Shown here in pieces: positions 1 to 33,849 of a DNA stretch of 40,867 nt (position 1 is its first letter; every line of letters begins with the position of its first letter). The notes beneath the pieces were generated by a model, which was not told the origin of the DNA, searched no databases, and worked only from the letters and a program-made list of their open reading frames with translations. The position numbers and the translations under genes were made by a program. Where the stretch lies: contig CANLAV010000006.1 of NCBI GenBank assembly GCA_947487905.1, forward strand, positions 1 through 40,867, given 5' to 3'. This stretch comes from Bacteroidota bacterium (GTDB taxonomy: Bacteria; Bacteroidota; Bacteroidia; B-17B0; Aurantibacillaceae).

Positions 1-529
1 AAACAAACCAGCCTAATACTCTTGTTGCTTTTGCAACTTGAGGACCTGCTGTTTGAGCTAATTTTGCAACTTCTCCAAACCAAACTAGGTATGCAATGTA
101 GAAGTAAGCAGCTCCAGAGATTACGCCCCATAAAACGCTTTGGTCTCTGTCGATTGTTTCTCCAAAGTAACCTGTTACAAGCATCACTATTGACGCAAAA
201 ATTAATTTCCACAATAAGCCAATTTTAGCTCCTGCTTTTTTAGTGATTAAATAAAATTCAACACACATTAAAGGAACAGTTAAAATCCAATCCACATATC
301 TAAAGAATGTTGGTGAGTCTCCAGTTTCTAAATTGTAACTTCTCATGTAGTAGTAATGAACTGCTGCAATAAAAGTAATTAAACCAGATACGAGTACTGA
401 TGTTCTCCATTTTGCAGATGTGTTGTTCAACTCAAAAAAGAAAAAAACTGATGCGGCCATCATTGCCATAGTACCAATAAAGAACGTGAATGCGACGTAG
501 TTATCGCTTGCAATTTTTAAATGCTCCAT
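1..529 (-). CDS. Proteorhodopsin (green-type, proton-pump motif), partial: 3' end lies beyond the left edge
   Basis: Reverse-complement reading from ATG at 529 gives 176 codons with no stop: MEHLKIASDNYVAFTFFIGTMAMMAASVFFFFELNNTSAKWRTSVLVSGLITFIAAVHYYYMRSYNLETGDSPTFFRYVDWILTVPLMCVEFYLITKKAGAKIGLLWKLIFASIVMLVTGYFGETIDRDQSVLWGVISGAAYFYIAYLVWFGEVAKLAQTAGPQVAKATRVLGWFV. Helix C RYVDWILTVPLMCVEFYLI matches the proteorhodopsin signature with the DTE triad. Confidence 0.95.
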   Translation of the reverse strand, partial: MEHLKIASDNYVAFTFFIGTMAMMAASVFFFFELNNTSAKWRTSVLVSGLITFIAAVHYYYMRSYNLETGDSPTFFRYVDWILTVPLMCVEFYLITKKAGAKIGLLWKLIFASIVMLVTGYFGETIDRDQSVLWGVISGAAYFYIAYLVWFGEVAKLAQTAGPQVAKATRVLGWFV

Positions 530-615
530 TTTATTTTGTTTTTAAATTTTCCTACTCTATTGGCTTTTCGGAATCCGCCTTTTAGTAAAACACTTATTAA
601 TAATTAAAGTTTAAA

Positions 616-647
616 TAAATTTAATTGTTTCATTTTAATTATCCAAA
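616..647 (-). promoter_or_regulatory. Possible Bacteroidota-type promoter for the proteorhodopsin gene (TTTG-N20-TAAATTTA on the minus strand)
   Basis: CAAA at 644-647 and TAAATTTA at 616-623 on the plus strand. This resembles the Bacteroidetes -33 TTG / -7 TAnnTTTG pattern, but the last base of the -7 box deviates in an AT-rich background. Confidence 0.22.
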
Positions 648-851
648 AAAATTAATAAAATAATTTACATTGAAGTTGTATTAATTTTGTAAATCTAATT
701 TTATTTAATATTTGTCGCATAAAATTAATATTTTGTCTAAAAAATATTAATTAATGGGTTAGAGCTTTATTCTCATTTTTTGCCTTTTTAATCGTTTTTT
801 ATTGCCCACGTTTTATTATTACAAACATATATTTAAAACATAAAACAAATC

Positions 852-1784
852 TTATTTCCCTATCTCTGTAATTTGTTTTTCTAAAAACATAATACCTTCT
901 GTAAAACTTTTTGGATTATAACCCAATTCTTTTTTTGCCTTATCAATAATGAAACCTGTAATTGGTGGGCGTTTGGCAGGTTGTTTAATATCAGCCGATT
1001 TTGATGGTTTAATTAATGATTTATCTAGTTTGTAATAGTCAGCCACTAAATGAGCTAATTCTAAAATACTTAAAAAATCTTTACCTGAAATATTATAAAT
1101 ACCTTGGGCATTTTTTTCAGCAATCAAAATACAGCCATCTGCTAAGTCTTCTGCAAGTGTTGGCGTTCTAAATTGATCATCAACCACATTAATAACCTTA
1201 CCTTGTTCTAAATTTTGTTTTACCCACAACACAATGTTGCTTCGGCTCATGCTATCAACAATGCCGTAAACCAAAACGGTTCGTGCAATGGCACAATGTA
1301 AGCTGCTTGCTTGAACTATTTTTTCAGCGGCTAATTTACTTTCAGCATAATAGCTTTGTGGATTCGGCGTTTCGTTTTCATCTAAAGGCCCATGAGTACC
1401 ATCAAAAATAAAATCGGTGGATAAATGAATAAAATGTGGATGGTAAGTTGAGTCTTCTTGTTTGAGTTTTTCTAAAGTCTTAATTTGATTTTCAACGGCT
1501 GTTACATTTAATAACCAGCACGCTTCTTTTTCTGTTTCGCAAGCATCAACATTTGTCATAGCTGCTGTATTAATAACTACATCTGGCTTATGTTTCAAAA
1601 ACACATCACTCACATTTTGTAAATCAGTTATATCTAATGATTCATACACGTAGCCATCTGTTTTAACTAATCTATTAGTGCCTCTTGCTGTAGCAATGCA
1701 AGTGATGTTTGTGTTGTTTCTTAATTTGTAAACTAATTTTTGTCCTAATAAACCATTAGACCCTGTAATTAAAATTTTTTTCAT
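852..1784 (-). CDS. SDR-family sugar-nucleotide reductase, dTDP-4-dehydrorhamnose reductase (RmlD)-like
   Basis: N-terminal GSNGLLGQKL Rossmann motif; RmlD-like NTAAMTNVDACE and YAESKLAAE segments. Confidence 0.8.
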   Translation of the reverse strand: MKKILITGSNGLLGQKLVYKLRNNTNITCIATARGTNRLVKTDGYVYESLDITDLQNVSDVFLKHKPDVVINTAAMTNVDACETEKEACWLLNVTAVENQIKTLEKLKQEDSTYHPHFIHLSTDFIFDGTHGPLDENETPNPQSYYAESKLAAEKIVQASSLHCAIARTVLVYGIVDSMSRSNIVLWVKQNLEQGKVINVVDDQFRTPTLAEDLADGCILIAEKNAQGIYNISGKDFLSILELAHLVADYYKLDKSLIKPSKSADIKQPAKRPPITGFIIDKAKKELGYNPKSFTEGIMFLEKQITEIGK

Positions 1785-6729: not shown

Positions 6730-7914
6730 CTATTCAACATAAAAAGCCAATCCTTTTAAATATTCTCCTTCCGGAAAATTAGGCGTAATAGGATGATCGG
6801 CAGGTTGTGATAAGGTGTGTAACAATTTTAAATGTCTGCGAGATTCAATGGCTGCTGCTGTTACTGTATTATAAAATAATGCCTTGTCAATTACTCCAGA
6901 GCAAGAAAAGGTAAATAAAATCCCCCCTTTTTTGATATTTTGTAAAGCCATTTGATTTAAACGTTTGTAACCGATTACAGCATTATGAGATACGTTTTTA
7001 CTTTTTGCAAAAGCTGGCGGATCTAAAATAATGATGTCGTAATTTTTTCCATGATCTTTTAAATAATCAAAGGTATCAACTGCAAAGCCTTCGTGGTTTG
7101 TGGCATGATTCAAGATGGCATTTTTATCACATAACTCAATGGCTTTTTTACTCGAATCTACTGAATGTATGATTTCGCAGTTATTTTTTGCGGCATACAT
7201 ACTAAAACCACCTGTGTAAGAAAATGTATTTAATACACGTTTTCCTTTACTGTATTTTCCAAGCAATTCTCTATTATAACGTTGATCAATGAAGAATCCA
7301 GTTTTTTGTCCATTTATAAAATCGATGTAAAATTTGACGTCATTTTCAACTACAATTAAATCGCCTTGTAATTCTCCAAATAAATACTCGTTTGAAATGG
7401 ATGCGCCATAATTTGGTGGCAAAGTTTCCGAACTTTTATCATATACGCTTTTCAAAGCATCTCCATAAACTATCGCTAAAGCTTCGGTAATTTCTTTTCT
7501 GCATAAATGCATGCCAATACTGTGTGCTTGAAATACAATGTGTCCATTGTAAAAATCCATTATTAAACCAGGCATTCCATCGCCCTCTCCAAATACCAGG
7601 CGGTATACGTTTGTTTGTGGATTGTTTGCCAAATTTAAAAACTGACGGTATGTAAAGGCTTGATTTATTTTTTTAGTCCAAAATTCTGTGTTAATCTGTT
7701 GTTTGCTAAACGATATGATACGTGCAGAGATACTCGCTTTTTGGTATTGCGCCATTCCTAAAAACTGTTCTTTTGCCGAATATATTTCTACGATATCGCC
7801 ATCTGCTAAATTGGAATCCATGGTTTTGATAGCTCCCGAAAAAATCCAAGGATGAAAGCGTAATACAGGAAATTCTTTCCCATTGTGTAAGGTTATTTTT
7901 GGATAAGTTGTCAT
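6730..7914 (-). CDS. Class I SAM-dependent 23S rRNA (cytosine) methyltransferase, RlmI/PUA-like
   Basis: N-terminal PUA-like region, NTFSYTGGFSMYAA, DIIILDPPAFAKS and FSCSG motifs. Confidence 0.85.
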   Translation of the reverse strand: MTTYPKITLHNGKEFPVLRFHPWIFSGAIKTMDSNLADGDIVEIYSAKEQFLGMAQYQKASISARIISFSKQQINTEFWTKKINQAFTYRQFLNLANNPQTNVYRLVFGEGDGMPGLIMDFYNGHIVFQAHSIGMHLCRKEITEALAIVYGDALKSVYDKSSETLPPNYGASISNEYLFGELQGDLIVVENDVKFYIDFINGQKTGFFIDQRYNRELLGKYSKGKRVLNTFSYTGGFSMYAAKNNCEIIHSVDSSKKAIELCDKNAILNHATNHEGFAVDTFDYLKDHGKNYDIIILDPPAFAKSKNVSHNAVIGYKRLNQMALQNIKKGGILFTFSCSGVIDKALFYNTVTAAAIESRRHLKLLHTLSQPADHPITPNFPEGEYLKGLAFYVE

Positions 7915-7918
7915 GTAA

Positions 7919-7926
7919 CAAATGTA
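7919..7926 (-). promoter_or_regulatory. Candidate Bacteroidota -7 box TACATTTG upstream of the RlmI-like gene
   Basis: CAAATGTA on the plus strand matches TAnnTTTG on the minus strand, 4 nt from the annotated ATG (near-leaderless if used). Confidence 0.3.
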
Positions 7927-8014
7927 TGGCTTAATTAAGGTTTATTTAAGAATTTTAAAATAAAAATTAACTAAATTTACGTTTCAAATTTATATATTAT
8001 AGTTTTTACAAAGT

Positions 8015-8338
8015 ATGACAACATCTGAAATAAAATTAAAAGTGACGGTTGATGAAAATCAATTACCAGTTAAAATAGAGTGGGAAGCACCTGATGCTAA
8101 AGAAGGAAGTGTTTGTAAAAGTATGATGCTTGCTTTGTGGGATGAAAAAGAAAATAATACCATGAGAATTGATTTGTGGACTAAAGAAATGGGAATTGAT
8201 GAAATGAAAAAGTTTTTTCATCAAAACATTATGACTTTAACAGAAACCTATACGCGCGCAACAAACGATGAAGCCACGGCTAAAGAAGTACGCGAATTTA
8301 TGAGTGGACTCGGTAAAAAAATGGGAGTTTTAGCGTAA
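8015..8338 (+). CDS. gldC: Gliding motility protein GldC
   Basis: 107 aa, MTTSEIKLKVTVDENQLPVKIEWEAPDA...TMRIDLWTKEMGIDEMKKFFHQ, matches the GldC family. Confidence 0.9.
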   Translation: MTTSEIKLKVTVDENQLPVKIEWEAPDAKEGSVCKSMMLALWDEKENNTMRIDLWTKEMGIDEMKKFFHQNIMTLTETYTRATNDEATAKEVREFMSGLGKKMGVLA

Positions 8339-8406
8339 AATATTTTTTCTATTTATCAAATAAGAAATTATTTTATAGAACGTGTTTTTTTAAACTTTTG
8401 AATGTT

Positions 8407-8481
8407 ATGCCGAACTTGATTAGGCATCTTTTAAGTAATTAATTTTTATTGTTATGAGATTCTGAAACAAGTTCAGAATGA
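8407..8481. repeat. Paired REP-like palindromic elements in the gldC/mscL intergenic region
   Basis: ATGCC(8407-8411)...GGCAT(8423-8427), and TTCTGAA(8460-8466)-ACAAG-TTCAGAA(8472-8478) within GAGATTCTGAAACAAGTTCAGAATGACC. Confidence 0.5.
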
Positions 8482-8493
8482 CCTAAAATAAAT

Positions 8494-8525
8494 AAAGCTG
8501 AATAATTATTATTCAGCTTTTTTAG
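8494..8525. terminator. Bidirectional intrinsic terminator between convergent gldC and mscL
   Basis: Perfect 13-bp inverted repeat AAAGCTGAATAAT (8494-8506) / ATTATTCAGCTTT (8508-8520), flanked by A-rich and T-rich tracts. Confidence 0.85.
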
Positions 8526-8543
8526 TTTTCATTTTTTGTAACA

Positions 8544-8972
8544 TTATTTTTGTAAAGCGTCTCTAATTTCAGTTAATAAAACATCTGTACTTGATGGGAC
8601 AGTAGGTTCTGCAACTAGTTCAGCTTTTTTCATTTTATTCATTGCTTTAATAATCATAAACATTACAAATGCAACAACTAAAAAATCAATGGCAGTAGTA
8701 ATAAAAGCTCCCCATTGCACCGCAATTTCATTAACAGCTGCAGTTATGACAGCGCCACTAGCATCTTTCACTTCTGCAATGCCTTCTTTAATAACAATTT
8801 TTTTCTTTGTTAAGTCAATGCCTCCCATAAGTAAACCAACTAATGGTGAAAACATTTTTTCTACAAATGCACTAACTACTTTTCCAAAAGCAGCACCCAT
8901 TACAAATGCAATAGCCGTGTCTACTAAATTTCCCTTAAGAGCAAATTCCTTAAATTCTTTAATCATTCCCAT
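8544..8972 (-). CDS. mscL: Large-conductance mechanosensitive channel MscL
   Basis: MIKEFKEFALKGNLVDTAIAFVMGAAFGKVVSAFV signature. Confidence 0.95.
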   Translation of the reverse strand: MGMIKEFKEFALKGNLVDTAIAFVMGAAFGKVVSAFVEKMFSPLVGLLMGGIDLTKKKIVIKEGIAEVKDASGAVITAAVNEIAVQWGAFITTAIDFLVVAFVMFMIIKAMNKMKKAELVAEPTVPSSTDVLLTEIRDALQK

Positions 8973-9033
8973 TTTTTTGTGTTTTAGGTTAAATTGTATT
9001 TAAGGAATAACTTACATCTTTTGTGCCAAAAAA

Positions 9034-10035
9034 TTAATTATTGTCTAACACTTTTAATAATTCATCTAATTTTGGCGTTAATATTATCTCAGTACGTCTG
9101 TTTTTCTTTCTTGCTTCTGCTGTTTTATTTGCATCAATAGGAAAATATTCGCCACGACCAGCCGATGTAATTCGTTTAGCATCGGTACTTGAATTTTGTA
9201 ATAATATTTTTGTTACTGATGTTGCACGTATCACACTTAAATCCCAGTTGTCTTTGATGTCTCCATTTCCTTTCATTGGCACATCATCTGTATGGCCTTC
9301 AACTAAAATATTGATGTCAGGATTTTGTTCCAATACTTTCGCTACATTTTTCAATGCTTCTACACCTTTAGGTTCTACTGCTGTTTTGCCACTAGCGAAT
9401 AATAAGGATTCGTCCATACTCACATATACTTTTCCGTTTTTTTGAGTAATGGTTAATCCTTTATTTTCGAAATTAAATAAGGCATCTTGCAATTTCTTTT
9501 TCAAAGCTGCGGTTGCTTCGTCTTTTTTCTTGAGTACAGATTCTAATTCGTTTACACGAGCTTCACGAATTTTTAATTGTGCAGATAAGGCATCTAAATC
9601 TTGTTGTTGCCTATTTAATTTTGATTCTAATAAATTTAACTCATCTTGTTTTTTTAATAGTTGCTCTTGAGTTCCTTGTAATTTGCTGCTTAACGATGCA
9701 TTGTCTTTTTCAGAACCCGCTAACATGCGGTTGTATTTATCAAGTAATTGATCATTTACGAAGTTTAGTTTATCGTATTTGTTTTGGAGCAAACGTAAAT
9801 TTGTGCCAAGAATAGACGTGTCACGCTGTAAACCTAAGATGTCTTTTTCGTTTTTAGTTAAAGTTTCTGTAGCAGATTTCAGTTTATCTTCAGCTTCTTG
9901 ATTTGCTTTTTTTAAATTAGCGGATTCCGTTTCACAATTCGTTAGTTTTGTTTTTGTTTCTTCTAATATACGTTGTGGAACGCATGAGGAAATTAAAATG
10001 CTGAGAATGCAAATTGGATAAAATATCTTTTTCAT
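9034..10035 (-). CDS. OmpA-family lipoprotein with coiled-coil N-terminal region
   Basis: Lipobox LISSC, long heptad/coiled-coil segment, C-terminal OmpA domain NILVEGHTDDVP...RRTEIIL. Confidence 0.9.
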   Translation of the reverse strand: MKKIFYPICILSILISSCVPQRILEETKTKLTNCETESANLKKANQEAEDKLKSATETLTKNEKDILGLQRDTSILGTNLRLLQNKYDKLNFVNDQLLDKYNRMLAGSEKDNASLSSKLQGTQEQLLKKQDELNLLESKLNRQQQDLDALSAQLKIREARVNELESVLKKKDEATAALKKKLQDALFNFENKGLTITQKNGKVYVSMDESLLFASGKTAVEPKGVEALKNVAKVLEQNPDINILVEGHTDDVPMKGNGDIKDNWDLSVIRATSVTKILLQNSSTDAKRITSAGRGEYFPIDANKTAEARKKNRRTEIILTPKLDELLKVLDNN

Positions 10036-14265: not shown

Positions 14266-15693
14266 TTATTCTTTTAAATTAATTTTTTCATCACCTGTTT
14301 GATAAGGCAAATACGCAAATATAAACTGAAACATTTCTTCAGTTGATTTCATGCTTTTTATGCCATCACCTTGTGTTACTAGTTTTGGCGGACTGTTTGG
14401 ATTGTTTGGATTTTTGTTGGTATTATCAAAGGTTCCAAAAACGTTGATGGTTGTTCCTTTTTCAATTTTTATAGGATGTTGAAAGGTGTAATAATATTGC
14501 CATTTAAAATCCCATTTATTTATTTTAATTAGAGGAATAGTGTCTCCATTTGGTTTGATAGCAAAGGCCCAAAACGATTTGCCTAATAAGTGCATGTGTG
14601 GATTTATAGATAGCATTGAAATATCTGCATCTAATGTTGCTTTTGTAGTGAAGGTTTGAATTTGGTTGGGTTGTAAAATCAATTCTGGCTCAATGTTTGA
14701 AATACCAAACGTTCCTAATTGTGTTTCAAAAATGGGACGCTTTGGTTTTGGTCCATAAAAAATATTGATGTAAGAGCTGTCGAGCCTGTCTTTATTGGTT
14801 GGTGCGTAATGAATGCTTTTTATTAAAATGCTTGATGTTTTATTGACTCTGTAACCGCCAATGCCCAAAGGATAAGTTGGAGGCACATAACCAGGTAAGT
14901 AATAAACGGTGTTTGGTGTGAGAGTTGGAAATGTTCTGTCATCATTTAAAATATTCATATGCTGATACAATGCCTTGTAATCGCTATATTCATCTAAAGC
15001 ATAAGATAAACCCTGGCTGTTATTTTTTTTAGAATTTGATGAATAGTTAATCAAATGGCCATTAACATGATGTACGAATTTATGGTGTGATGGCACAAAT
15101 TCAAAGTAACGCACAAAGGTGTCTTTGCTAAATTGCATTGGCATTTTGATGATGTAAAAATAGTCTGTTCCATTTCCCTTTATCGGAATTAAATCTTTGA
15201 ACTGTATAACGGTATCGGGCTTGTCAAAATGAGAACCTTTATAAAAGGTTGGCGTACTTGGTATTTTTGTTGCATCGCCTAAAGGGGTTTTGTTTTCAAC
15301 CCAAACTTTTATGGTTTCAATTTCTTCATCTGTCAATAGGCGTTCGCCAATAAAATGAGTGTATGTGGCATCTGCAGGCCAAGGTGGCATGTAACGTGTT
15401 CGTGTTACAAATTTAATTTTATTAGCATATTTTTTTACGTCGTTGTAATTCAATAATTCAAACGGACCACTTTCTCCTGGCCTGTGGCAAGGCGTACAGT
15501 TTTTAAAAATAATTGGCGCAACATCCACAAAGGTTGGGTTAGTGATAGGATGTTTTTGAGACGTGTTATTGCTTTCATTGTTGCATGAAGTCAACAAGAT
15601 TATATTATAGGCACATAAAATAAGCATTGATAATTTAGCTATTTTCAAACAACTAAAATCAAACAACTTTTTTCTGAAATTACTCTTGTACAT
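14266..15693 (-). CDS. Lipoprotein with c-type haem motif plus copper type II ascorbate-dependent monooxygenase (PHM/DBH)-like domains
   Basis: Lipobox LTSC (C37), CTPCH (66-70), RYMPPWPAD, and putative Cu ligands HH208-209, H295, H366/H368 (HMH), M454 (TEEMFQF). Confidence 0.8.
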   Translation of the reverse strand: MYKSNFRKKLFDFSCLKIAKLSMLILCAYNIILLTSCNNESNNTSQKHPITNPTFVDVAPIIFKNCTPCHRPGESGPFELLNYNDVKKYANKIKFVTRTRYMPPWPADATYTHFIGERLLTDEEIETIKVWVENKTPLGDATKIPSTPTFYKGSHFDKPDTVIQFKDLIPIKGNGTDYFYIIKMPMQFSKDTFVRYFEFVPSHHKFVHHVNGHLINYSSNSKKNNSQGLSYALDEYSDYKALYQHMNILNDDRTFPTLTPNTVYYLPGYVPPTYPLGIGGYRVNKTSSILIKSIHYAPTNKDRLDSSYINIFYGPKPKRPIFETQLGTFGISNIEPELILQPNQIQTFTTKATLDADISMLSINPHMHLLGKSFWAFAIKPNGDTIPLIKINKWDFKWQYYYTFQHPIKIEKGTTINVFGTFDNTNKNPNNPNSPPKLVTQGDGIKSMKSTEEMFQFIFAYLPYQTGDEKINLKE

Positions 15694-18148
15694 ACACTCT
15701 TTTTACACGTGAAGAAATTCCAGTTAATACTTCATAAGGAATTGTTTCCATAGCTAGGGATAATTGATGAAGCTGTTCGTTAGTTTCATAAATAACAACA
15801 TCATCCCCTTCTTTGCAATTTAGACCTGTTACATCAACCATACACATATCCATGCAAATATTTCCTACGGTTTGGGCTGTTTGATTGTTTATTGAAACAC
15901 TAAAATGACCATTACCTAATTTTCTGCTGAATCCATCTGCATATCCTATTGGTATAGTCGCAATCGTTGTATCTTTTGTCATCATTGCATTTCTGCTATA
16001 TCCAACGGTGTCGCCGGCTTGTAAATATTTTAGTTGCGATATGCGTGTTTTTAACGTACTAATATTTTTTAGATGTTGTTTTTCAACGTGATTAAATCCG
16101 ATGCCATACATGCCAATACCTAAACGCACCATATTGTAATGAGCATGTTTAAAACGAGTGATGGCTCCCGAATTACAAATATGTTTTAAGGTGTGATATC
16201 CTATGGCGATTTCTATTTGTTGCGCTACATTATCGAATAATGAAATTTGTTTATGGGTATAATCATCAAAAGATTCATTGTCGCTCGCCACTAAGTGCGA
16301 AAAAACACTTTTCACCTGTAAACTTTTTTCTCTTTTTAAAAGTTCAATTAATTCAGGAATTTCTTTTTCTTCAAAGCCTAATCGGTGCATGCCAGTATCG
16401 AGTTTGATATGAATAGGATAGGGCCCTGCAATGGCTTTATTTTGAAGGGCATTTATAAATTCGTGAGCTACTTTAAACGAATAAATTTCGGGCTCTAGAT
16501 TATAATCAATTAAATCATCGTAAGAAGATTCCTCAGGACTCATCACCATGATTGGTAAATGAATACCAGCTTTTCTTAAATCAACGCCTTCATCTGTATA
16601 AGCAACAGCCAAATAATTCACGTTGTGATGTTGAAGCGTAAAGGCAATTTCCGAACTTCCTGCACCATAACCAGTTGCTTTAACCATGCACATGATGAAG
16701 GTTTCGTTACTTATTTGTGAGCGATAAAAATTTAAATTTTGAACTAAGCTATTTAAATTTATTTCTAAAATAGTATCGTGACTTTTTTGTTGAAATTGTT
16801 TACTGATGTTTTCAAAACCAAATCTGCGGGCGCCTTTTAATAAGAGGATAGCATGATGAAATTGTAAATTGAGATGTGTTTTTATACTATCTAAGAAATC
16901 AGTTGTGTTGTCAAAAAAGTAGCACTCACCTTTAAAGCTATTTTGTTGATGAGAAATTTCTTTTCCAATTCCAATCACAACATCTATGTTGAAGAAGTTA
17001 AGCAAAGCCGAAACCTCTTCGTATAGTTGCTTGGCAGGTTTACCACTTTGTTCAATGTCAGATAACACAACTATTTTTTTTCCACCGCGGTGCTGTTGCT
17101 TTTGATAATGCAAAGCAATTTCTAAGGAATTAATATCTGAATTATAAAAGTCGTTTATTAAAATACAATTATTGTTTGCCAATTTTAATTCTAATCGCAT
17201 TTCAACAGATTGCAAACTTTGCATTCTACTTTCAATTACTTCGTTAGGAATTGATAAATGTAACAAGGTGCCCCAACAAGTAATGGCGTTGTGAATGCTC
17301 GCTTTGTCAGTAAAAGGAATGGATATGCTATAAGTTTCTTTATTAAAGATGCCAGTAATTTTAGTGGCATGTAAATAAGAATCTATTTCTAAAATTTGTA
17401 GATTGGCACTTTCTTCTTCCGAAATGATAAATGCGTTTTTTACATATTGATGTATATCGTTTAATTGAGCATGAATAGATAACGCATTAATGATCGTTAT
17501 TTCACACTGTTTAAATAAAATTAATTTTTCTTTGAGTTTTATGCTTGTGTCTGTAAAGCCTTCGTCGTGTGCTGTTCCCAGAGAGGTTAAAATTCCGATA
17601 GAAGGTTTTATGATTTTTTCGAGCAAATTCATTTCTCCAATTTCAGAAATGCCAGCTTCAAAAATAGCTAGGTTGTGTTGACTATTTAACTGCCAAACCG
17701 ATAAAGGAACACCTATTTGCGAATTAAAACTTTTCGGACTTCGGCAAATAGTATAATCGTTTTTTAAGAGTTGATATAACCATTCTTTTACAATCGTTTT
17801 CCCGTTACTGCCAGTTATACCTATGGTTGGAATATTGAATTGATGGCGATGGTAGCTTGTTAGTTTTTGCAGCGCAGTAAGGGTGTCGTCAACTATAATA
17901 AAACACGCATCAGAAAATGGTTTGCAGTTTTCGGGAATGTAATTAACTAAAAATGTTTTAACGCCGCTTTGATATAGATGAAATAGGTATTGATGTGCAT
18001 CGTTTCTTTTAGAAATAAGTGCAATAAATAAGGTATGACTCGGTTCAGTTAACTGTCTGCTATCAATGAGTAAATGTTTAATGTCATGGTTTGAATGACC
18101 AATGCACTTAGCATTTAAAATTTCTGAAATATGTGTTGTTTTGTACAA
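15680..18148 (-). CDS. Bifunctional UDP-N-acetylmuramoyl-tripeptide:D-Ala-D-Ala ligase / alanine racemase (MurF-Alr fusion)
   Basis: N-terminal Mur ligase (GITGSNGKTIVKEW) and C-terminal alanine racemase (VKATGYGAG, KLDTGMHRLGF, RLGIGMYG). Confidence 0.93.
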   Translation of the reverse strand: MYKTTHISEILNAKCIGHSNHDIKHLLIDSRQLTEPSHTLFIALISKRNDAHQYLFHLYQSGVKTFLVNYIPENCKPFSDACFIIVDDTLTALQKLTSYHRHQFNIPTIGITGSNGKTIVKEWLYQLLKNDYTICRSPKSFNSQIGVPLSVWQLNSQHNLAIFEAGISEIGEMNLLEKIIKPSIGILTSLGTAHDEGFTDTSIKLKEKLILFKQCEITIINALSIHAQLNDIHQYVKNAFIISEEESANLQILEIDSYLHATKITGIFNKETYSISIPFTDKASIHNAITCWGTLLHLSIPNEVIESRMQSLQSVEMRLELKLANNNCILINDFYNSDINSLEIALHYQKQQHRGGKKIVVLSDIEQSGKPAKQLYEEVSALLNFFNIDVVIGIGKEISHQQNSFKGECYFFDNTTDFLDSIKTHLNLQFHHAILLLKGARRFGFENISKQFQQKSHDTILEINLNSLVQNLNFYRSQISNETFIMCMVKATGYGAGSSEIAFTLQHHNVNYLAVAYTDEGVDLRKAGIHLPIMVMSPEESSYDDLIDYNLEPEIYSFKVAHEFINALQNKAIAGPYPIHIKLDTGMHRLGFEEKEIPELIELLKREKSLQVKSVFSHLVASDNESFDDYTHKQISLFDNVAQQIEIAIGYHTLKHICNSGAITRFKHAHYNMVRLGIGMYGIGFNHVEKQHLKNISTLKTRISQLKYLQAGDTVGYSRNAMMTKDTTIATIPIGYADGFSRKLGNGHFSVSINNQTAQTVGNICMDMCMVDVTGLNCKEGDDVVIYETNEQLHQLSLAMETIPYEVLTGISSRVKRVYVQE

Positions 18149-18205: not shown

Positions 18206-18637
18206 TTATTGTTGTAATCTGTGTGATTTACGAATTCGTCTAATCCGCTTTTGTTTTTTTTCAACGATGAATTTTTTGTCGTGGTAGAATCTAGCAGGAC
18301 CACATTGGCAAAAGGAATCATGAATACCTTGCGGACAATGCTTGAATTTATGAAGTTTTGTAATAATAACAGTATCAATTTTGATTCTAGGATTTGTACA
18401 CTGGCAAATAAAATTATGAATACCTCTTGGGCAATATGATTGAATGCGTAATTGTTTTAATGAAATGGAATCGAAGTATTTTGTAGGATTTGAACATTGA
18501 CAAATAAACCCACCATGACCGGGATTGCCACGCGGGCAAATGTAGTTTGATGGAATTTCTTGGGCATAAAAAAAACCACTTCCAATTATTGTAAACACTA
18601 GTATAATTGAAAGTGGTAATTTCTTAAAAAACATCAC
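18206..18637 (-). CDS. Small secreted cysteine-rich repeat protein, function unknown
   Basis: Signal peptide ending FFYAQ; three repeats each with CP[RQ]G...CQC (C34/46/48, C69/78/80, C101/110/112); basic C-terminus. Starts on the last nucleotide of the response-regulator ORF. Confidence 0.7.
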   Translation of the reverse strand: MMFFKKLPLSIILVFTIIGSGFFYAQEIPSNYICPRGNPGHGGFICQCSNPTKYFDSISLKQLRIQSYCPRGIHNFICQCTNPRIKIDTVIITKLHKFKHCPQGIHDSFCQCGPARFYHDKKFIVEKKQKRIRRIRKSHRLQQ

Positions 18638-32649: not shown

Positions 32650-33849
32650 TTATTTTTTCTTTTTAATTATTTTTTTAGCAACAACTTTTTTCTTCGCTAC
32701 TGCTTTTTTTACTAATACTTTTTTTGGCATTGATTTTTTAATAACTTTTTTGGGTACAGTTTTTTTAATAGTAACTTTTTTTAATGGTTTTGTGATTTTT
32801 TTTGCAACTGCCTTTTTAGTTATTTTTTTTGTCGCAACTTTTTTCACTATTACTTTTTTAGCAAGCACCTTTTTTACTGGTTTTTTAGCAATTGCTTTTT
32901 TAATAACTTTCTTAGCAATTACTTTCTTAACTATTTTTTTAGCAGCGGTTTTAACCACTTTTTTAGGAGCTGGCTTAGTGATTTTTTTAGTTGCTATTTT
33001 TTTAGCAACTTTTTTAATTACTACTTTTTTAGTAGGGGTTTTAGTTGCAATCTTTTTAATTGGCGCTACTGCAGTTATTTTTTTAGAAACTATTTTCTTA
33101 GGAACCTCTTTTTTTATATTTTTTTTAATTTCAGGTTTTTGTTTGATTTCAGATTTTCTAACTTCTTCAATATCTTGTTTTAATTCTTCTGAAATTTCAG
33201 TTGCAACTTCAAAATCATTGATCGTTAAATCTAAATGTTCAATGTCGTTTTCGAGATTTGTTAGTTCAATTTCAGCTTTAACAAAAATAATACGTTGTAT
33301 TAATTCATTAAAAATTTGATTGATAGAACCAATTCCATCTATGGAATGAAACTTAGATTGCTCGGAATAATAATTCTTAAGCGGCAACGTTTTTGTATTG
33401 TATTCGTTTACTCTATTTCTTATAATGGATTCGTTTTGATCATCTGGTCTTCCTGATTCTTTTCCTCTTAATAGTAAGCGTTTTATCAACTCTTCATTAT
33501 CAACTTCAAGTGCCAACATAGCTGAAATAGCTGTGCCTTTTTTTTGTAATAAATCATCTAAGGCCACCGCTTGCGCTTGCGTACGCGGAAAACCATCAAA
33601 TATAAAGCCATTAGATTCAGGATTTGAATCTAATTTCGATTCAATCATACCAATAACAATTGCATCACCCACTAAATCACCCTTATCCATTAATTGCTTG
33701 GCTTCTAACCCTAATTGTGTTTGCTTAGCAATTTCATTGCGCAAAAGATCACCAGTAGATAGATGAATTAAACCATATTTTTCAATTAATTTTTCAGATT
33801 GCGTTCCTTTACCTGCGCCTGGAGGTCCAAATAAAACAATGTTTAGCAT
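32650..33849 (-). CDS. adk: Adenylate kinase with long lysine-rich C-terminal extension
   Basis: Residues 1-~190: MLNIVLFGPPGAGKGTQSEKL...GFIFDGFPRTQAQA, short-LID Adk. Residues ~191-241: charged linker. Residues 242-399: 67 Lys of 158 with recurring KKxxKKxxx. Confidence 0.93.
   Translation of the reverse strand: MLNIVLFGPPGAGKGTQSEKLIEKYGLIHLSTGDLLRNEIAKQTQLGLEAKQLMDKGDLVGDAIVIGMIESKLDSNPESNGFIFDGFPRTQAQAVALDDLLQKKGTAISAMLALEVDNEELIKRLLLRGKESGRPDDQNESIIRNRVNEYNTKTLPLKNYYSEQSKFHSIDGIGSINQIFNELIQRIIFVKAEIELTNLENDIEHLDLTINDFEVATEISEELKQDIEEVRKSEIKQKPEIKKNIKKEVPKKIVSKKITAVAPIKKIATKTPTKKVVIKKVAKKIATKKITKPAPKKVVKTAAKKIVKKVIAKKVIKKAIAKKPVKKVLAKKVIVKKVATKKITKKAVAKKITKPLKKVTIKKTVPKKVIKKSMPKKVLVKKAVAKKKVVAKKIIKKKK

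Follow-up and report, generated by a model that had tools for sequence, protein, structure and literature searches.

A Bacteroidota-type proteorhodopsin gene and its probable partner, a CrtY-Blh fusion gene predicted to supply retinal

The stretch of DNA analysed here (hereafter the window, 40,867 nucleotides) is contig C6 of a 2.45-Mb draft genome of a Bacteroidota bacterium, assembled in 205 contigs, 95% complete and with an estimated contamination of about 4%. At its left edge the minus strand carries an ATG-started frame of 176 codons (529..2), open at the window edge, which matched the Pfam Bac_rhodopsin model (PF01036) with an E-value of 1.7e-30 and solved proteorhodopsins with an E-value of 8.6e-70, values that exclude a chance match. 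An earlier note, made from the letters alone, had proposed an edge-truncated proteorhodopsin on this strand and had dismissed the plus-strand ORF listed there as spurious. Both proposals were borne out: nothing supports the plus-strand ORF (22..228, 68 aa), which lies inside the rhodopsin gene. The frame itself, Pfam, PDB matches and the alignment together assign residues 1–176, that is helices A to about E/F, to positions 2..529, and an NCBIfam search returned no name for the fragment. The codon of His58, the counter-ion partner equivalent to His75 of proteorhodopsin (PR), lies in the 176-aa frame at 356..358 (minus strand), in a column conserved in 50 of 51 alignment rows. The helix-C motif D80...T84...M88...E91 (PR D97/T101/L105/E108) was located at 257..292, also on the minus strand, by alignment of homologues. 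His58, Asp80 (22 residues further), Thr84, Met88 and Glu91 occupy the same columns in the homologues, exactly as the note had placed them. We take the motif residues to provide the proton acceptor, the spectral tuning site and the proton donor. Their roles were also drawn from PMC8386455.

Upstream of the rhodopsin gene, an intergenic region without annotated ORF (530..851) separates it from a sugar-nucleotide reductase gene (852-1784, minus strand). The remainder of the window carries several other minus-strand genes of some individual character. A 475-aa protein (14266-15693) shows a CxxCH-type motif near its N-terminus and a weak match to a copper type II monooxygenase C-terminal domain; a Mur ligase is joined to an alanine racemase in a single 822-aa ORF (15680-18148); and a 143-aa protein with three CPxG...CQC repeats (18206-18637) has no Pfam match. 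An adenylate kinase (32650-33849, PF00406 over residues 6-165) extends into a C-terminal tail of roughly 190 residues, Lys/Ala-rich with KKVAKK-type, histone H1-like composition, again with no Pfam match.

We then considered the kind of rhodopsin encoded. The D/T/E triad together with Met at position 105 predicts a green-absorbing proton pump. The same prediction is used in PMC8386455, where Leu or Met at 105 is described as common in green types. The key columns of the window rhodopsin read HDWTMEDK and are identical in 44 other alignment rows; in the six most distant rows the tuning site is Leu, and the DTE pattern is missing from one of these. In the tree the protein fell within a 19-row DTE group (support 98/96); the Flavobacteriaceae rows stood outside this group, and the six xanthorhodopsin-like or Na+-pump-like rows were distant. 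The residues, the family model and the tree all support a DTE proteorhodopsin whose tuning site holds Met, for which outward proton pumping and green absorption would be expected from the residues. The label 'SAR86-type' given in the note had to be abandoned, since the best PDB match scored 237 bits and the SAR86-like green proteorhodopsins in the PDB 133 bits, and Bacteroidota homologues are far closer, with identities up to 96%. Recent horizontal transfer is unsupported as the cause of the 88–96% identity to near relatives: dS is above 1 (silent sites near saturation) for a dN of 0.03–0.10, and the high identity is explained by purifying selection. The closest characterised type is the flavobacterial green proteorhodopsin (DTE, Met105; PDB 9jou/9jov), which shares with the window protein the HDWTMEDK residues, the full length and the proximity of a retinal-synthesis gene, and from which we saw no functional difference. 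Identity is about 60–70% to Flavobacteriaceae rows and 88–96% to a group of mostly lake Bacteroidota. The proteorhodopsin is in these respects an ordinary member of a known pump type.

The missing C-terminus was sought in the draft genome with PF01036, which gave two matches and no more, one at the window edge (profile 4-171) and one at the right-hand end of contig C73 (profile 173-221). The latter piece (C73:11725..11534, minus strand), identified by profile search and alignment, encodes 63 residues, starting LVGWAIYPLGYILG and ending DIVYNIADAINKIGFGLVIYALSRNSED, which make up residues 177-239. It carries the helix-G DxxxK motif, D219 and the Schiff-base lysine K223 four residues apart, so that the lysine which the note had expected outside the window is indeed present. 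The two pieces meet at codon 176/177, overlapping by one base, and between them every residue is present once; the joined gene has 239 codons, no premature stop and, aligned with 29 relatives, neither gap nor indel at the junction, and the 239-aa product exceeds the Bac_rhodopsin cut-off in both pieces, that is over its full length. We infer the join of C6 and C73, which no read spans. Alternatively, the pieces might belong to separate rhodopsin genes or to more than one strain in the bin, and an overlap of at most one base and the contamination of about 4% leave some room for this. We nevertheless regard it as very unlikely, given that the genome has just two rhodopsin pieces, complementary at codon 176/177, and that a genome of the same genus (G072, loci L007/L123) carries the rhodopsin and then the fusion gene described below, in the same order on a single contig.

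On C73, on the same strand and 74 bp past the rhodopsin stop, we found an ORF of 685 codons (C73:11459..9402) with two Pfam domains, both far over cut-off. Residues 18-387 match the lycopene cyclase model (Lycopene_cycl, PF05834, profile 1-377 of 380) and residues 434-680 the Brp/Blh beta-carotene 15,15'-dioxygenase model (PF15461, profile 3-266 of 267). The neighbouring blh gene that the note had suggested beyond the window is hence present, not as a separate gene but as the C-terminal half of a CrtY-Blh fusion. No lycopene cyclase and no Blh other than this fusion was detected in the draft genome; htpG follows the fusion in the opposite direction. Elsewhere, contig C24 carries crtI, crtB and a NUDIX (idi-like) gene in a single run, and two polyprenyl synthases are present in the genome. 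Together with the fusion, these genes make the route from isoprenoid precursors to retinal appear complete. No CrtZ-like beta-carotene hydroxylase was found in the genome; the sole FA_hydroxylase match, a 296-aa sterol-desaturase-like protein, was rejected as a candidate.

To follow the spread of the fusion, it was used as query against 85,462 species genomes, yielding 79 loci. Single ORFs with both domains are the rule among them (about 66 after removal of duplicates). Hosts are mostly aquatic Bacteroidota, including marine and lake Flavobacteriales, Crocinitomicaceae, Cryomorphaceae and others, and fusions also occur in genomes whose records bear the labels Ignavibacteria, Kapaibacterium and Chlorobiota. 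Of 398 genomes sampled evenly across the phylum, 59 carried Blh, mostly unfused; in five, the present genome included, it lay in a frame of 650-687 residues. A second Blh fusion type in G323 (958-aa frame) was rejected, as the BCD domain was the only one found; the remaining part resembles an extended open frame of GC-rich DNA. In the Blh tree, a single clade (100/99) unites the 68 fused rows with one unfused row (L128). The CrtY tree likewise groups the fused rows together (95/96); the apparently 'separate' CrtY rows inside this group are truncated contigs (L060, L063, L068) and a frameshifted copy (L072). At L128 (genome G038, 7851-9773), a rhodopsin 96% identical to that of the window is followed by a Blh without CrtY half. 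Since rhodopsin and Blh are kept and a separate CrtY lies on another contig, G038 most likely lost the CrtY half of the fusion.

Both domain trees fit what seems to be a single origin. In 17 of 18 unfused loci with both genes, crtY directly precedes blh on the same strand and the frames overlap, and such a pair would be the natural ancestor of the fusion. Bacteroidota with separate crtY and blh beside a proteorhodopsin use the same enzyme families and share the order rhodopsin, crtY, blh (e.g. L136), but make two proteins where the present genome encodes one polypeptide and where the fused forms are a single clade. The overlapping arrangement also means that a single frameshift could fake a fusion, and in a draft of 205 contigs the ORF might be suspected to be an assembly or sequencing artefact, two adjacent genes misread as one. 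This is hardly credible, since about 66 loci from independent assemblies hold an uninterrupted fusion ORF of 650-720 codons. These ORFs fall into a single clade in the trees of both domains, and their linkers can be aligned and are similarly long. In close pairs dN/dS was 0.05–0.39 for both halves, indicating purifying selection, to which the linker is usually less subject than either half.

No solved relative of the fusion was retrieved by sequence search. The AlphaFold2 model of the same-genus homologue L007 was confident over both halves (pLDDT 90, pTM 0.84). In a fold search with this model, the N-terminal half corresponded to an FAD-dependent enzyme fold, e.g. geranylgeranyl reductase, as expected of a CrtY; the matches listed were FAD enzymes only, all on the CrtY half. 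The C-terminal half is all helical. In the marine 66A03 Blh, four histidines (H21, H78, H188 and H192) are needed for activity (PMC9227343). Three of them seem to have counterparts, judged by motif, in H441, H492 and H607 of the present protein. The fourth, in the HxxxH motif, is S611 in the present protein and G, S or A in all fused rows. It is also absent from unfused Blh proteins of the same class encoded beside proteorhodopsins, hence its absence would be no specific argument against activity. All fused rows have H441, H492, H607 and H673, and unfused rows nearly always do; H673 is shared by every aligned row. H529, E532 and W612 never vary within the fused clade but do so in most other rows.

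A simple model of the locus would be as follows. The N-terminal CrtY half, with its FAD fold, would cyclise lycopene to beta-carotene; the C-terminal, membrane-helical Blh half would cleave beta-carotene to retinal, and the fusion would help to pass the intermediate directly from one half to the other. Retinal would then bind K223 of the pump. We are confident that the locus encodes a green-tuned outward proton pump of Bacteroidota type, probably co-expressed, from a presumed common transcript, with a bifunctional CrtY-Blh that would supply its retinal. The fit of the two gene halves, the key residues, the intact fusion ORF, its apparent single origin, purifying selection and the association with rhodopsins are demonstrated at the sequence level, and both enzyme activities of CrtY-Blh are predicted from sequence. 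Three points speak against this reading: the rhodopsin C-terminus and the fusion lie on a contig other than the window, by a join that we infer; one histidine essential in the 66A03 Blh (HxxxH) is not a histidine here; and relatives that have a second CrtY or lack the CrtY half, described below, show that the fusion can be dispensed with.

We further examined whether the fusion is dedicated to the pump. Many fusions adjoin a rhodopsin gene, and of the 19 fusion genomes whose fetched flank lacks a rhodopsin, 17 encode one at another place. None was found in the two genomes G501 (L016) and G495 (L056), either because these drafts are incomplete or because retinal is used otherwise. At loci L042, L043, L083 and L124, and at L047, L061 and L065, the rhodopsin gene either follows the fusion or precedes it on the opposite strand, and the gene order of the cluster is thus not fixed. 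A second, separate CrtY accompanies the fusion in G072, G006, G039 and G009, and G038 has most likely lost that half of the protein; the fusion is hence not essential. The fused cyclase is the only one found in the present genome and in G077, G128, G292, G308 and G408, absence from a draft being weak evidence.

These data bear on two readings. The fusion may be real without any channelling, fixing only a 1:1 ratio of the enzymes or with its CrtY half serving general carotenoid synthesis, and we give this slightly less than an even chance. As the fusion is the only cyclase found in the genome, every cyclic pigment would depend on it, and G038 manages with CrtY and Blh as separate proteins. Against this, no CrtZ-like gene was found in the present genome, and a separate CrtY retained alongside the fusion in several relatives suggests that the two have different tasks, although neither observation settles the matter. 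More tentatively, lycopene may be accepted and beta-carotene passed directly from CrtY to Blh within the one protein and, in the six genomes with no second cyclase found, cyclic carotenoid may be made essentially for the light pump only.

The adjacency of rhodopsin and blh is well known (PMC5932025). In the protist Thecamonas trahens, a CrtI-CrtB-CrtYc/d-Blh fusion has been proposed to lead directly to retinal (PMC10016063). It resembles CrtY-Blh in having a cyclase followed by a C-terminal Blh within one protein; it differs in being eukaryotic, in its CrtYc/d-type cyclase instead of the FAD-fold CrtY, and in carrying CrtI and CrtB too. The two fusions look independent and convergent. A bacterial CrtY-Blh fusion was not found among the open-access papers searched; subscription papers and preprints, outside this scope, may note one. 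The CrtY-Blh fusion seems to be the main interest of the locus, as a retinal-synthesis architecture apparently new for bacteria.

Surveys that count crtY and blh by separate profiles can count this one gene twice. CrtY-Blh is also a bifunctional part ready for use in retinal production. Without retinal a proteorhodopsin cannot serve its purpose, so that retinal supply is a point of control over how heterotrophic bacteria use light. With a fusion of apparently single origin, kept with or without a second cyclase, channelling from carotene to retinal becomes testable, as does the separation of pump supply from photoprotective pigment: the contrast between genomes with and without a second CrtY can test whether the fused CrtY serves pigment as well or retinal only.
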